Origin: a bacterium
GTDB lineage: Bacteria > SZUA-79 > Acidulodesulfobacterales > Acidulodesulfobacteraceae
Reading direction: 5' to 3'
Assembly: GCA_021784835.1 (NCBI GenBank)
Contig: JAJYHI010000032.1
Span: 1-33,673, forward strand
DNA length: 33,673 nucleotides
Part shown: piece by piece, positions 28,783 to 33,673 of the stretch
Layout: every line of letters begins with the position of its first letter
Position numbering within the stretch: the stretch's first letter is position 1
Notes under the pieces: model-generated
Told to the model about the DNA's origin: nothing
The model's input: the letters and a program-made list of their open reading frames with translations, nothing else
The model's database searches: none
Position numbers and translations under genes: made by a program

Positions 28783-28857
28783 GCCGGCGTGGCTCAGGGG
28801 TAGAGCAGCTGATTCGTAATCAGCGGGTCGTAGGTTCGATTCCTATCGCCGGCTCCA
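28783..28857 (+). tRNA. tRNA-Thr (anticodon CGT)
   Basis: A complete cloverleaf. The acceptor stem pairs GCCGGCG with CGCCGGC, and the D arm contains GGCTCAGGGGTAGAGC. The anticodon stem GCTGA/TCAGC encloses the loop TTCGTAA (anticodon 28815-28817), and the T arm is TAGGTTCGATTCCTA. The discriminator is T and CCA is encoded. Confidence 0.97.
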
Positions 28858-28948: not shown

Positions 28949-30508
28949 TTATATTTTTTTTAAAATAAGACTCAATACGGCTATAATGATTCCGATAAAA
29001 GAACCGGTTATAGCACCGTTTATTCTTATATATTGCAAGTCGTTGCCGATTTTATCTTCGATTTGGCCGACTAATTTATCTTCGTCAAGATTTTCTAAAT
29101 TTTTTCTTATAAGTTTTCCTATAGCCGAATGATTGATTTTCATAACATATATAATGTTGTTTTTTAAAAAAACATCAATTTTATCGGTGTTTTTTGATAT
29201 TTCATTCTCTATGAAAATAAAAAGATAATTAAATTTTTCTTTAAACAATTTTTTATTAACTATATATTCTTTGTTGTTTTTAAGTATTGAACCGACAAAA
29301 TTTATTATTGTATCGCGCATAATGCTTTTTAACCGGTCTTTAAAACGGACTATAATATTTAAACCCTCCGAATTAATAAAATTTGAAAGTTTGTTTTTAA
29401 TCGTTTTTTTCAGTTCGTCGTTATTTAAATAATTTATTATGTAATCTTTTATTTTATCGGCATTTTCGTCGATAATATTTTCTACGGCATTTAAAATTTG
29501 AATCCTTGAAGTTTTGTCTATATCGTTTAATGCGCTTAAAATATAATCTTTTATATTTAATCTGACCTCGTTATTTTCGTTGTTTTTTATATCTTTAATA
29601 AAATCTATAATTTTTGTTATAATTTCGTTAGAAAGCCTATCTATGTCCAAAATATTCGTCTTTTCCGCTACAAACATCAGTACGTTCTTTAAGGCGGAAC
29701 TGCTTTTGTATTTTTCGATTATATCGGCTACCTGTTGTTTTAAATACGGCCTGTTTTCTTCTATGTTTCGTATTGCGAAGCCGCTTAAATCAGATATAAT
29801 GTAGGCGAAATTTTCATCTATTATTTTATTTCCCGCAAATTTTATAGATTTTATAATTTCATCCGAATACGCGTCCGTGATTTTTTTTGACAGGACGTCC
29901 GCATTATACGTTTTAATATAATCGTTTATATAATTAATTAAATTATCGTAAATATAATTCGAATCTTCGGACTCCAAAAATACGGCAAATTTGCTTATTA
30001 TATTTTTGGATATATTGTCGTCGGACAATGTTTTGTCCAATGCTTTATCGATATTTTTATGTAAAAAATTTTTAAATTTATCCGTTTTGGCATAATTAAC
30101 TGATTTTAAAATTAATTTTCTTAAAGACAGCATTAATTTATTTTTGTTTTTATCTTTTTTTATAATGTTTAGCAGGATATCGGAAAAATTTATGTCGTTT
30201 ATTTCTTTTGCAAGATAATTTTTGCCGAGCCATATATCGTTGACGGTATTGCTTATCGAATTAATAATTTTTTCTTTGTTGTTTTTAATGGTATTTGTGT
30301 GCGGAATATGAAGTCCGAGCGGATATTTAAATAAAGCCGTTACGGCAAACCAGTCGGCGATACCGCCTATAAGCGCCGCCGCCGAAGCCCTTTGCAGTAT
30401 AAATATCCAGATATTATCGACGTGTATAAGGTAAGATGCTAAAAAAATTAAAAAAGCAAATAAAAGAAAGAGATTTGCGATAATTTTATTTTTGGCTTTT
30501 AAATCCAT
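28949..30508 (-). CDS. DUF445 (YjiN-like) membrane protein
   Basis: A 519-residue protein with membrane helices at the N terminus (about 10-28 and 33-50) and at the extreme C terminus (about 501-517), enclosing a long, charged, helical middle rich in lysine, asparagine and aspartate. The diagnostic DUF445 segment is LIGGIADWFAVTALFKYPLGLHIPHT (about 46-71). The C-terminal GSFIGIIIAVLSLIL is also typical. The family function is unknown; some members affect cell-envelope properties. It stands alone, convergent with tRNA-Thr and divergent from the LexA-like gene. Confidence 0.88.
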   Translation of the reverse strand: MDLKAKNKIIANLFLLFAFLIFLASYLIHVDNIWIFILQRASAAALIGGIADWFAVTALFKYPLGLHIPHTNTIKNNKEKIINSISNTVNDIWLGKNYLAKEINDINFSDILLNIIKKDKNKNKLMLSLRKLILKSVNYAKTDKFKNFLHKNIDKALDKTLSDDNISKNIISKFAVFLESEDSNYIYDNLINYINDYIKTYNADVLSKKITDAYSDEIIKSIKFAGNKIIDENFAYIISDLSGFAIRNIEENRPYLKQQVADIIEKYKSSSALKNVLMFVAEKTNILDIDRLSNEIITKIIDFIKDIKNNENNEVRLNIKDYILSALNDIDKTSRIQILNAVENIIDENADKIKDYIINYLNNDELKKTIKNKLSNFINSEGLNIIVRFKDRLKSIMRDTIINFVGSILKNNKEYIVNKKLFKEKFNYLFIFIENEISKNTDKIDVFLKNNIIYVMKINHSAIGKLIRKNLENLDEDKLVGQIEDKIGNDLQYIRINGAITGSFIGIIIAVLSLILKKI

Positions 30509-30565
30509 ATTTTTAATTTTATCATTATTTTATAGCATTGACATAATTTTTGTTTAATTTTTTGC

Positions 30566-30616
30566 TTGACAGTGAACGATTGTTTACTATATTATAATAT
30601 ATATCGCGATATATAT
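30566..30616 (+). promoter_or_regulatory. Promoter with LexA-type operator for the SOS-like cassette
   Basis: TTGACA (30566-30571) is followed after 16 bp by TATATT (30588-30593). The spacer is exactly GTGAACGATTGTTTAC (30572-30587), an inverted repeat with 5 of 6 arm matches and the core GAAC-N4-GTTT, close to the Gram-positive-type LexA box. At the expected start point lies a 20-bp perfect palindrome ATATATATCGCGATATATAT (30597-30616). A LexA-like gene follows. The motif positions are seen; repression is inferred. Confidence 0.6.
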
Positions 30617-30631
30617 ATGCCGTAAATATAG

Positions 30632-30691
30632 AATAATTCAAAATTTCAATAATTCAAAATTTAAATTTCATCATTAATTTCATCATTAATT
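30632..30691. repeat. Short tandem repeats in the leader of the LexA-like gene
   Basis: AATAATTCAAAATTTC at 30632-30647 recurs as its first 14 bases at 30648-30661. AATTTCATCATT then occurs at 30663-30674 and 30675-30686, with a partial third copy (AATTT) to 30691. These are probably slippage-derived repeats in an untranslated leader of about 130 nt. Confidence 0.6.
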
Positions 30692-30727
30692 TAATTTTTT
30701 CATATTGTTCTGCTATAAATTATAAAT

Positions 30728-31378
30728 ATGGATATAAAACTTAAGGGCAGACTTGATTCTATAAAAGGTTTCTATATAAAAAGCGGAAGGATGCCGACTT
30801 ATTCCGAAATGACGGATTTATTCGGGGTGAAATCAAAAAATGCGGTTTTTAAAATAGTCGGCAAGCTTATAGAAAAAGGTTTTTTAAAAAAAGATTCAAA
30901 AGGGTATTTACTGCCTGTTTCCGGTATTTATGCGGATACGGCGGCTATGCTGATGACTAATGCATCCGCTATTTTTGCGGCGGCAGCAGGCGCAGGCGGC
31001 GGTCTTATTAAGCTTCTTGGAAGCGTTGAAGCCGGTTTTCCCAGTCCTGCGGAAGAAGAGCTTTTAGACAGCATTTCTATCGATAAGCTTTTGATAAAAA
31101 ATCCAAATTCTTCTTTTATGCTTGAAGTTTCAGGAGATTCTATGATTAACGTCGGCATAATGCCGAAAGATTTTGTAGTAGTAGATAAATCGCTGACGCC
31201 CAAAGAAGGCGATATAGTGATAGCGCGCGTAGACGGCGACTGGACGATAAAATATCTCAGAAAAGATAACGGCAAATATATACTTGAAGCTGCAAACCCT
31301 AAATATGGAATTATAACGCCTAAACAGGAATTAACGGTTGCGGGAGTCGTAGTAGGCACTATAAGAAAATATAAATAG
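30728..31378 (+). CDS. LexA/UmuD-like autocleaving repressor
   Basis: Residues 1 to about 63 form a LexA-type winged helix (MPTYSEMTDLFGVKSKNAVFKIVGKLIEKGFL). From about 98 a peptidase S24 domain follows. The self-cleavage site EAGFPSP has its Ala-Gly bond at 102/103, the catalytic serine is in SGDSM (S138), and the catalytic lysine is in WTIKYLRK (K175). The C-terminal half is closer to UmuD (AGFPSPAEE..., GDIVIARVDGDWTIK), while the N-terminal DNA-binding domain is that of LexA. The linker holds an unusual alanine/glycine run (AIFAAAAGAGGG, about 81-92). It is probably both SOS repressor and polymerase partner for the next gene, 34 bp downstream. Confidence 0.88.
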   Translation: MDIKLKGRLDSIKGFYIKSGRMPTYSEMTDLFGVKSKNAVFKIVGKLIEKGFLKKDSKGYLLPVSGIYADTAAMLMTNASAIFAAAAGAGGGLIKLLGSVEAGFPSPAEEELLDSISIDKLLIKNPNSSFMLEVSGDSMINVGIMPKDFVVVDKSLTPKEGDIVIARVDGDWTIKYLRKDNGKYILEAANPKYGIITPKQELTVAGVVVGTIRKYK

Positions 31379-31412
31379 CGGTTAAATTATAATCGTATAA
31401 CAAAGTAATTTT

Positions 31413-32648
31413 ATGACCAATTTTTGCGTACATTCATGGCCGAAGGCTATCGCCCACATAGATGCCGACGCTTTTTTCGTAGCATGCGAGCGTGCGTTAA
31501 ATCCGTCTTTAAACGGAAAATGCGTCGCGGTAGGAAAAGAGCGGGGCATTATAACGGCTTTAAGCTATGAAGCTAAAGCAAAAGGAGTAAAGCGCGGCAT
31601 GAGGTCTTTCGAAGCTAAAAAAATATGTCCCGGGCTTATAGTTATAGAATCCGATTACGAAGCATACTCCCTTTTTTCTTTACGTATGTTTAATATAATA
31701 AAAAACTTTTCGCCGCAGGTAGAAGAGTATTCGATAGACGAGGCGTTCGTCGATTTAAGCGGATTACGAAGGGTGTTTTCCTGTTCCTACGAAGAAATTG
31801 CTAAAAAAATGCAGATTGCGGTAGAAAAAGAGTTGTCTATAACCGTTTCGATAGGCGTAAGCATAACGAAAACGCTTGCTAAAATAGCTTCTAAACTTAA
31901 AAAGCCTAAAGGGCTTGCCGTAATAGAAGGCAGGGATATACAAAATATTTTATGCAATATCAAGATTGAAGACGTCTGGGGCATAGGAAATAATACGGCG
32001 TATCTTTTGAAAAAATTCGGCATAAATTCCGCTTTAGATTTTGCTCTCAAAGACGAAAATTTTATAGGTAGGTATTTATCTAAACCTTATAAAGAAACAT
32101 GGCTTGAACTTAGAGGAAATGCAGTTTTAGGAATTAACGCATCCGCTAAATCGACTTATAAAACTATAAGCAAGGCTAAGAGTTTTTATCCGCCCTCAAG
32201 CGACGAGATGTTTCTTTTTTCGGAACTTACTAAAAATTTAGAAAATGCCTGCGCTAAAGCCAGAAGATTTAACTTAGCCGCCGCAAAAATTTCTATTTTT
32301 TTAAAAACGCAGGATTTTAAAACAACCGGCGTTCAGATAAAACTTACTACGCCTTCCGCCTTCCCGCCTCTTCTTATGAATGCTTTAAAAGAAGGTTTTA
32401 AGTATATATATGAAAAAATATATCTATACAGGCAGACGGAAATAGTTTTGTACCTTACGGAAAACGTCCAGTATTCGCTTTTTGACGATATTGTTAAAAT
32501 TGATAAAATAAAACGCATATACGATTCTATAGACGGTATAAATAAAAAATTAGGAAGAAATTCCGTTCATCTTGCTTCAAGCATTCCTTCTTTAAACGCA
32601 GGACATAAAATTAGATTTTCTATGCCGCTTATGGATATAAAAGTATAA
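31413..32648 (+). CDS. Y-family translesion DNA polymerase (UmuC/DinB-like)
   Basis: An error-prone polymerase that copies damaged templates. Catalytic acidic residues are visible in HIDADAFF (D17) and YSIDEAF (D109, E110). SYEAKAKGVKRGMRSFEAKKICP is the finger/active-site region. SIGVSITKTLAKIASKLKKPKG and the helix-hairpin-helix VWGIGNNTAYLLKKFGI follow, then the little-finger domain. A beta-clamp-binding motif QYSLF (about 353-357) is followed by a 54-residue tail. The 411 residues and neighbouring UmuD-like repressor favour a UmuC-type role over stand-alone DinB. It starts 34 bp behind the repressor, so both would be induced together. Confidence 0.93.
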   Translation: MTNFCVHSWPKAIAHIDADAFFVACERALNPSLNGKCVAVGKERGIITALSYEAKAKGVKRGMRSFEAKKICPGLIVIESDYEAYSLFSLRMFNIIKNFSPQVEEYSIDEAFVDLSGLRRVFSCSYEEIAKKMQIAVEKELSITVSIGVSITKTLAKIASKLKKPKGLAVIEGRDIQNILCNIKIEDVWGIGNNTAYLLKKFGINSALDFALKDENFIGRYLSKPYKETWLELRGNAVLGINASAKSTYKTISKAKSFYPPSSDEMFLFSELTKNLENACAKARRFNLAAAKISIFLKTQDFKTTGVQIKLTTPSAFPPLLMNALKEGFKYIYEKIYLYRQTEIVLYLTENVQYSLFDDIVKIDKIKRIYDSIDGINKKLGRNSVHLASSIPSLNAGHKIRFSMPLMDIKV

Positions 32649-32688
32649 ATTTTAACAAATTAATTTCAAAAGCTCAGAGGTTAAATAT

Positions 32689-32898
32689 ATGTATGGGTTA
32701 GGCAGATTCCTTATATTAACCGGAATAGTATTGATAATTTTAGGTTTATTATTTATTGTTTTTCATAAACTGCCTATAGGCAAGTTTCCGGGAGATATAA
32801 TAATTAAAAAAGGCAATTTTACTTTTTATTTTCCATTGGGATTAAGTATAATTGCAAGCATAATATTGACTATTATTATGTATTTAATAAGAAAATGA
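32689..32898 (+). CDS. DUF2905 small membrane protein
   Basis: A 69-residue protein with two membrane helices (about 4-25 and 48-66) joined by a short loop. It has the family pattern LGRFLILTGIVLIILGLL and KLPIGKFPGDIIIKKGNFTFYFPLG, which defines DUF2905. The function is unknown. It is the last recognisable chromosomal gene before the tRNA-Lys fragment, ending 18 bp from it. Confidence 0.92.
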   Translation: MYGLGRFLILTGIVLIILGLLFIVFHKLPIGKFPGDIIIKKGNFTFYFPLGLSIIASIILTIIMYLIRK

Positions 32899-32916
32899 TT
32901 ACAGTCTTTATTTTAC

Positions 32917-32961
32917 TGGTGGGCTGTCCCGGGATCGAACCGGGGACCTACTGATTAAGAG
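32917..32961 (-). pseudogene. 3' half of tRNA-Lys (CTT), probable attachment-site scar
   Basis: Read on the minus strand, this is anticodon loop CTCTTAA (CTT), half-stem TCAG, variable region TAGGTC, T arm CCCGGTTCGATCCCGGG, acceptor strand ACAGCCC, A and CCA. Upstream of the loop, the expected anticodon 5' stem (CTGA) is absent and the sequence is unrelated; no D arm or 5' acceptor strand is found anywhere to the window end. A clean break at the anticodon loop is the usual crossover point of tyrosine integrases in tRNA genes. The functional tRNA-Lys should lie at the far end of the element to the right. Confidence 0.75.
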
Positions 32962-33087
32962 AGAATCTCAATAACTTTTAACAAACCGACTTTCCGCCTG
33001 AAGTTATAGTATTTATAAGCTTTTCCGCAATTCCGACAATTCCGTTTAAATACCTAAATTTTGCTATATTTTACTATGCAGCGTTGC

Positions 33088-33120
33088 AAAACCGTTGCAT
33101 AAATTAAAACCGTTGCATAA
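33088..33120. repeat. 15-bp direct repeats near the attachment scar
   Basis: AAAACCGTTGCATAA occurs at 33088-33102 and again at 33106-33120, an 18-bp period, and the core CGTTGCA occurs once more at 33082-33088. The second copy overlaps the last codons of the HEPN gene. They may be integrase arm-binding sites or a duplication of the gene end. Confidence 0.6.
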
Positions 33121-33538
33121 CGTTAGGTGATATCATATTTATTTTTTTGATAACAAATGGCCTAACCTGCTCGGTTATGGATATAGCCTCTTTTTCATCC
33201 TCGATAGAAGCCTCATTTGAAGCCGGATATCTTGATTTTACAGCGTAATCGGTTAGTCTATCAGCCTCAATTTTATAAAGACTGATAAAATCATTATCTA
33301 TTCCTTTGCATATTTCAATTAATTTTGCTATATCGTGTGTGTGATGTTTGCGGTGACTATCATCGATTTCTATATTATTTGCAACTAAATAAGCCTTAAG
33401 GTATTTTTCGACAGCCTGCTGCATATTGTAACATACTATATTCTTAAAATTTTCAGAATTATTCCGAAATAAAGTTAAACCTGCGTTAAAATTCTCGTCT
33501 CCTAATTTGATCCATTCTTTTACAGTTTTTTCATTCAT
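33104..33538 (-). CDS. HEPN-domain protein (toxin of a HEPN/MNT pair)
   Basis: A 144-residue all-helical protein of the HEPN family (COG2250-like). AVEKYLKAYLV (about 42-52) in helix 2, HTHDIAKLIEI (66-76) and ADRLTDYAVKSRYP (92-105) are the family landmarks. The arginine-tyrosine-proline end is characteristic of HEPN proteins paired with MNT nucleotidyltransferases. An R-x4-H pattern is present at R63-H68, but inside the HTHD segment rather than at the usual RNase position, so RNase activity is uncertain. Its ATG overlaps the stop of the upstream MNT gene (ATGA), indicating translational coupling. In type VII systems the MNT partner inactivates the HEPN toxin by adenylylation. Confidence 0.85.
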   Translation of the reverse strand: MNEKTVKEWIKLGDENFNAGLTLFRNNSENFKNIVCYNMQQAVEKYLKAYLVANNIEIDDSHRKHHTHDIAKLIEICKGIDNDFISLYKIEADRLTDYAVKSRYPASNEASIEDEKEAISITEQVRPFVIKKINMISPNVMQRF

Positions 33539-33673
33539 ACGGCAACCCCATATTTAAGCGCATAATAAGTAATATTGCCGACATTATTATCTTTCTTAAT
33601 CTCACCCGATGAACTAATTATTATGTCATTATCAATTTTTAATTTCGCCATTTTCCTTCTAATCTTTAAAAGC
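33535..33673 (-). CDS. MNT-domain nucleotidyltransferase, C-terminal part (antitoxin partner), truncated by window edge
   Basis: An open frame enters from the right edge and stops at TGA 33537-33535, overlapping the HEPN start by 4 bp. The 45 visible residues end VGNITYYALKYGVAV, matching the usual C terminus of minimal nucleotidyltransferases paired with HEPN (pattern GxIxYxALKxGxxLY). The preceding KLKIDNDIIIS fits the last beta strand. The catalytic GSxxxGxxxxxSD region must lie outside the window. An internal ATG (33651) could suggest a 38-residue gene instead, but the match to MNT ends argues against that. Confidence 0.62.
   Translation of the reverse strand, partial: LLKIRRKMAKLKIDNDIIISSSGEIKKDNNVGNITYYALKYGVAV

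Follow-up and report, generated by a model that had tools for sequence, protein, structure and literature searches.

A displaced 3' half of tRNA-Lys(CTT) as the probable edge of an integrative element with a HEPN/MNT gene pair

The sequence at 32917–32961 of the window, that is, of the whole stretch of 33,673 nucleotides analysed here, is very probably an attR scar: the host's half of a tRNA-Lys(CTT) gene, displaced when a tyrosine integrase recombined an integrative element into that gene. The strands would have been exchanged at the 7-bp anticodon loop CTCTTAA or inside it. With the 3' half that it brought along, the element would then have made the tRNA whole again at its far (right) end, and the half that the host had before would have been moved to the left, up to the DUF2905 gene. 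At the right end we would expect an intact tRNA-Lys(CTT), a phosphoribosyltransferase flank, and an integrase of the clade called class I below. The element would be conjugative or mobilizable, and the HEPN/MNT module would serve it as cargo for maintenance or defence. Only its first 0.7 kb falls within the window, which has no integrase, no intact tRNA-Lys, and no second att site, so one end of the element is fixed to the base and the other is predicted. The coordinates of the features are collected in Table 1.

Table 1. Features around the junction in the window, and related elements followed to their far end
Feature	Position in window, or length	Strand	Basis and remarks
Intact tRNA-Thr(CGT), second attachment site	28783..28857	+	no element before DUF445 here; occupied in G001
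lexA-like gene, host	30728..31378	+	PF00717
dinB (Y-family polymerase), host	31413..32648	+	PF00817, PF11799
DUF2905, final host gene ahead of the junction	32689..32898	+	PF11146
Displaced tRNA-Lys(CTT) 3' half, nt 32–76 including CCA; probable attR core, host-side half	32917..32961	-	identity to intact genes, uniqueness, G001 divergence at inner end
Element end, presumed integrase-binding P arm	32962..33103	.	like sequence beside orphan halves of five tRNA species
Three direct repeats CGTTGCAAAA / CGTTGCATAA / CGTTGCATAA, candidate arm-type sites	33082..33120	.	putative role; third repeat inside HEPN gene end
HEPN-domain protein, 144 aa, complete gene, presumed toxin of the HEPN/MNT pair	33104..33538	-	Pfam PF05168, E 1.9e-17
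MNT nucleotidyltransferase, C-terminal part, presumed antitoxin, cut by window end	33535..33673	-	full gene L041:676-1008, PF01909/PF18765
Like-ended element of G011:C57, tRNA-Arg	~6.7 kb		far end: class I integrase beside intact tRNA
Like-ended element of G006:C126, tRNA-Ala	~29.8 kb		far end: class I integrase beside intact tRNA
Like-ended element of G024:C51, tRNA-Lys	~30.8 kb		far end: class I integrase beside further displaced half

The first-pass annotation of this DNA had described a tRNA-Lys(CTT) 3' half on the minus strand, running from the anticodon loop to CCA and lacking its 5' half, and both statements proved exact. Of 19 family genomes, 10 have an intact gene whose 3' half agrees with the fragment at 45 of 45 positions, and in the remaining nine the differences were located in the T-arm or beside it. 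The 45-mer, read on the minus strand from 32961 to 32917, had a single match in the window when up to three mismatches were allowed, and none in 100 shuffles. It begins at nt 32 of the tRNA, the first base of the anticodon loop, with nt 31 already unlike the cognate tRNA, and its CCA end lies 18 bp from the stop codon of DUF2905. ARAGORN and Rfam called only a tmRNA, a tRNA-Glu, and a tRNA-Thr in the window, with no tRNA-Lys among the calls and the 5' half absent, and the fragment is thus an orphan half. Among plasmid records, the tRNA half alone was matched, in four Variovorax plasmid records (45 bp, 89%).

The same boundary was found in other halves of the group. We picked 29 distinct orphan halves by an exact 30-nt tail, a set that is informative only up to about nt 46, and none of the 29 departed from its cognate tRNA anywhere between nt 32 and nt 44, with identity reduced to 18/29 at nt 31, 19/29 at nt 30, 22/29 at nt 29, and 13/29 at nt 28. 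Full identity from nt 32 in the 29 halves places the exchange, as far as the alignments can tell, at or within the anticodon loop, a class of crossover already known (PMC8371274, PMC4383910). In some elements, the common stretch may begin a few bases before nt 32; in the window, it begins at nt 32.

The nearest genome available for comparison, G001 (52% of sampled 31-mers common with the window), showed 97.9% identity to window positions 30001–32961, and the alignment stopped exactly at 32961, the inner end of the half. Beyond this junction, G001 carries a different element with a tyrosine integrase of 370 aa, in addition to ParA, ParB, and a helix-turn-helix regulator, these last genes having been read by eye without a family search. 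As G001 matches up to 32961 and has other DNA beyond it, we take the fragment as the displaced attR of a tRNA-integrating element located on the right, in agreement with the earlier proposal that it marks the edge of an integrated element. The displaced half of G001 differs from that of the window in four T-stem bases (two pairs) despite the 98% identity of the flank, and its T-stem is that of the intact tRNA of G001 itself.

In addition, two contigs binned with genome G024, L041 and L042, both start at the base matching window position 32860, as if at an assembly branch; because G024 belongs to another genus, they may be misbinned, and perhaps derive from strains of the window's species or its kin. 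L041 was 99% identical to window 32860–33673 (814 bp) and continues for 6 kb more. Ten of its proteins were scanned, with matches to HEPN, MNT, a calcineurin-like phosphoesterase, ORF6N, HTH_3, HTH_17, and a DnaB-like helicase, and three proteins without family; no integrase was found along its 7 kb, including the 6 kb beyond the window, and no relaxase or type IV secretion match was detected in it. L042 has 244 bp in common with the window, made up of 57 bp of flank, the half, and about 140 bp of element end, beyond which it encodes a Rep3-type protein, a Toprim/DUF3991 protein, and a protein whose TrbL match fell short of the curated cut-off. Behind one and the same half and flank there are thus three or more distinct DNA stretches, with only 57 bp of the flank represented in L041 and L042. 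A comparison with relatives lacking the insertion, also proposed earlier, succeeded in part: the DNA behind the half differs in G001 and L042, but no empty tRNA-Lys site directly beside DUF2905 was found in the loci examined.

The position of the element on the right side of the half, as the first-pass annotation had it, agrees with the surroundings of the intact tRNA-Lys(CTT) in the family. A phosphoribosyltransferase gene was present on its 5' side in 15 of the 19 genomes mapped, mostly at less than 1 kb and at up to 3.8 kb (G023), and was not seen at the tRNA-Lys(CTT) of G022, G030, G006 (contig end), and G017. In G015, 3 kb separate the 3' side of this tRNA from dinB–DUF2905. With the phosphoribosyltransferase 5' of the tRNA and dinB–DUF2905 on its 3' side, the missing intact copy of the window should lie to the right. 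Two loci count against an integrated element at this site: in G015, only restriction-modification genes, a methyltransferase and a TdeIII-type restriction enzyme, stand between DUF2905 and the intact tRNA-Lys (L056:11544-14275), with no orphan half detected, and in G006 no orphan half was detected within 1.3 kb after DUF2905. Of 20 genomes with an intact tRNA-Lys(CTT), eight (G020, G022, G006, G009, G023, G007, G016, and G024) have an integrase from one of the two clades next to it, and some of the remaining 12 have a contig end near this tRNA.

A change from housekeeping genes on the left to a HEPN/MNT pair on the right had also been described. The left side was confirmed by the lexA-like, dinB, and DUF2905 genes, the last of which adjoins dinB in G001, G006, G015, and G021 too; on the right side, the HEPN gene is complete, but the MNT gene is for the most part cut off by the window end. 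The HEPN domain protein (PF05168 in the window) adjoins an MNT-type nucleotidyltransferase (PF01909 in the neighbouring gene of L041), and the pair is presumed to be a toxin–antitoxin system. The element may carry an accessory system of interest, as had been proposed; the near-identical L041 offers the genes listed above.

The DNA directly behind the half was found in other places as well. Window 32962–33110 is an end with CGTTGCA repeats, of which the window has three, and the orphan halves of five tRNAs, Lys(CTT), Thr(CGT), Arg(TCT), Ala(GGC), and Lys(TTT), have sequence like it at their side, at 78–97% identity, with one Lys(TTT) copy degenerate, one Arg copy broken by about 20 bp, and a match of only 46 bp in G024:C51. 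In G006:C126, located at tRNA-Ala, the sequence next to the core agrees with the window at 38 of 39 bases. Three like-ended elements were followed through, and a class I tyrosine integrase was present at the far end in all three. In the G006:C126 element, of which 20 proteins were scanned, the matches above cut-off included TraG/TraD-like, TrbI, TraG P-loop (VirB4-like), and ParA-like proteins, as well as two DNA methyltransferases and an MvaI/BcnI restriction enzyme; CagX and Replic_Relax matches were below cut-off, and no relaxase family was matched among the 20 proteins. From these genes, we read it as a putative integrative conjugative element. Restriction-modification genes stand close to its orphan end, in the place of the HEPN/MNT pair of the window, and by analogy the element of the window may be of the same kind.

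A second attachment site, which took the place of the empty Lys site in the comparison, is present in the window at the intact tRNA-Thr(CGT), which is followed by TTCAAAACCGCAG and, 92 bp on, by DUF445. In G001, a flank equal to the one behind this tRNA sits behind an orphan Thr half, and the intact tRNA-Thr appears about 27 kb away on the same contig, with element DNA and a class I integrase behind it. The two loci form a natural empty/occupied pair, in which the displaced half is therefore the host's original and the new half that of the element; by the same logic, the Lys half of the window is likewise the host's original. The 3' flank of the window's tRNA-Thr (TTCAAAACCGCAGTAAATAAGCACTT, within 30 bp) resembles sequence located right behind other tRNAs or halves in relatives, and looks like an old class II element end. 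In G013 (L043:11660-13898), a 2.1-kb segment extends from an orphan Thr half to an intact tRNA-Thr, with HEPN/MNT and ORF6N-like sequence and an element end like that of the window (83%); no class I or class II integrase match was detected in this segment.

This last segment bears on whether the right side could be a decayed or non-autonomous remnant, a toxin–antitoxin-bearing cassette held between two tRNA halves after loss of the integrase. Together with a 2.1-kb segment of G015 that contains an integrase remnant and MNT-HEPN, it gives some substance to that idea, which we nevertheless consider unlikely, since L041, 99% identical to the window over 814 bp, extends for 6 kb with helix-turn-helix and DnaB-like genes, although the integrase is absent there too, and the Lys fragment of the window is unmutated. 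The element could also be a prophage instead of being conjugative or mobilizable: prophages often carry tyrosine integrases that act at tRNAs, and L041 has ORF6N and helix-turn-helix genes. However, no match to 32917–33673 was found in 50,697 phage records, viral contigs gave no exact match to a junction pattern or to an element-end pattern, and the complete like-ended element of G006:C126 has the TraG/TraD-like, TrbI, and VirB4-like genes described above, which makes a prophage quite improbable.

Two further explanations dispense with an element at this point. In an assembly chimera, a host contig would have been joined to an unrelated one at repeated tRNA sequence, and it is true that tRNA halves are repeats and that the contigs of several relatives end within about 100 bp of one. 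Such a join is very unlikely in view of G001, in which the same flank and a half with another T-stem allele run into other DNA, and of L041 and L042, in which the order flank end, half, and element end recurs. A simple tRNA pseudogene, with the 5' half deleted and no element inserted, would be compatible with the single end seen in the window, but it is hardly credible when tRNA identity starts at nt 32 and is complete from there in 29 of 29 orphan halves, the DNA beyond the half differs between near-identical genomes, and a like element end adjoins the halves of other tRNAs. We thus keep the reading of 32917–32961 as the displaced attR of an element integrated by a tyrosine integrase.

The analysis of the integrases started from 118 non-overlapping hits in the loci examined, from which 82 distinct proteins were kept after dropping 22 that were short or low-scoring, nine repeats, and five with a stop in the aligned stretch, these five adjoining a tRNA or half too. 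Three of the 82 came from loci chosen by tRNA or flank matches (L019, L033, and L064), and the others from part of the listed integrase coordinates. For 78 of them, a tRNA gene or half was no more than 450 bp away, with 19 isoacceptors represented over both clades. In class I, 25 of 27 had a tRNA or half at no more than 85 bp from the C-terminal end (seven isoacceptors), and in class II, 53 of 55 had it at no more than 341 bp from the N-terminal end (18 isoacceptors). Class I was present in 21 of the 30 phylum genomes examined (E 1e-40). On quick trees, we counted 10 target changes for class I (200 shuffles: mean 16.2, least 13) and 32 for class II (shuffles: mean 41.0, least 37). With fewer changes than in the shuffles, yet as many as 10 and 32, the targets appear partly inherited and often switched, and integrases 88% identical to each other are found at Lys(CTT) in G001 and at Val(GAC) in G017. 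Frequent target switching is already in print (PMC4383910).

In contrast to the 5' part of the tRNA-Lys(CTT), with two variable positions in nt 1–43 among 19 family genomes (position 7 and one in the D-loop), the 5' strand of its T-stem showed four versions in these genomes: CCCGG in 10, GCCGG in five, GTCGG in three, and CTGGG in one. The tRNA-Glu was identical in the seven loci seen, and tRNA-Thr(CGT), a target too, had one T-stem in 12 of 13 loci seen, some of these overlapping. Contig G024:C51 carries three successive displaced Lys halves (69249, 78669, and 109473; L073, L171), with the T-stems CCCGG, GCCGG, and GTCGG, and three displaced Lys halves are also present on the single contig G020:C3. 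These data suggest that elements replace host T-stems, and in S. meliloti, integrated elements have been reported to replace tRNA genes of the host with their own (PMC11476347). A broader reading, in which the two clades switch freely among tRNAs, each integration replaces the 3' half and its T-stem allele, and stacked halves form an ordered record of alleles, is tentative, close to an even call and if anything slightly doubtful; the little T-stem change of tRNA-Thr, despite its being a target, lowers its probability. Ordinary compensatory evolution is a possible origin of the T-stem differences. No account of stacked T-stem alleles stood among the papers listed by literature searches on this point. 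Islander (PMC4383910) lists 4 tandems of at least 3 among 3919 islands, a loose comparison because the halves of G020:C3 and G024:C51 do not each have their own integrase.

The element of the window belongs to a known kind, the tRNA-targeted genomic islands, and is ordinary in kind but rich in setting. Islander-type islands (PMC4383910) likewise have a 3' tDNA fragment at one end, a regenerated tDNA at the other, and a tyrosine integrase, and include an anticodon-centred crossover class, tandem arrays, and frequent target switching; here, in contrast, two integrase clades are found at tRNAs of 19 isoacceptors within one bacterial family. The pT26-2-type archaeal integrases (PMC8371274) also combine close integrases with many tRNA targets (14 in one group), but they belong to archaeal plasmids and are partly suicidal, whereas the present ones are bacterial, with the integrase gene wholly on one side of the core in the mapped loci. 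With integrative conjugative elements, the likeness lies in the integrase and type IV secretion genes of the complete like-ended relative, and the difference in the visible element of the window, without relaxase or secretion gene, and in that relative, without a relaxase among its 20 scanned proteins. Finally, the Tycheposons and additive flexible islands at tRNA-Lys(ctt) (PMC10872708) are similarly bounded by tRNA, with a tyrosine recombinase and a tRNA-Lys(ctt) end repeated in varying number, but differ in hosts and cargo, a comparison made by description.

The insertion mechanism is well known, and the host bacterial group is little studied and has many such elements. What is notable here is the target switching together with the stacked halves carrying different T-stem alleles. 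In this lineage, related integrative elements, some of them with HEPN/MNT or restriction-modification genes, dock at many tRNA genes, and this provides many natural pairs for the study of how integrases move from one tRNA target to another and of whether the tRNA sequences of the host are rewritten by mobile elements.

Other short segments bounded by Lys sequences were also observed. Lys halves lie 1068 and 1067 bp apart at L031:14426-15538 and L037:11180-12291, respectively, in G020 and G009, which represent two genera; their interpretation as one homologous cassette was rejected, as only the tRNA parts and a few adjacent bases align. In G030, from another family, the segment L036:5831-8675, with no class I or class II integrase match, extends 2.7 kb from tRNA-Lys to an orphan half and contains one large NERD/UvrD-like helicase gene.
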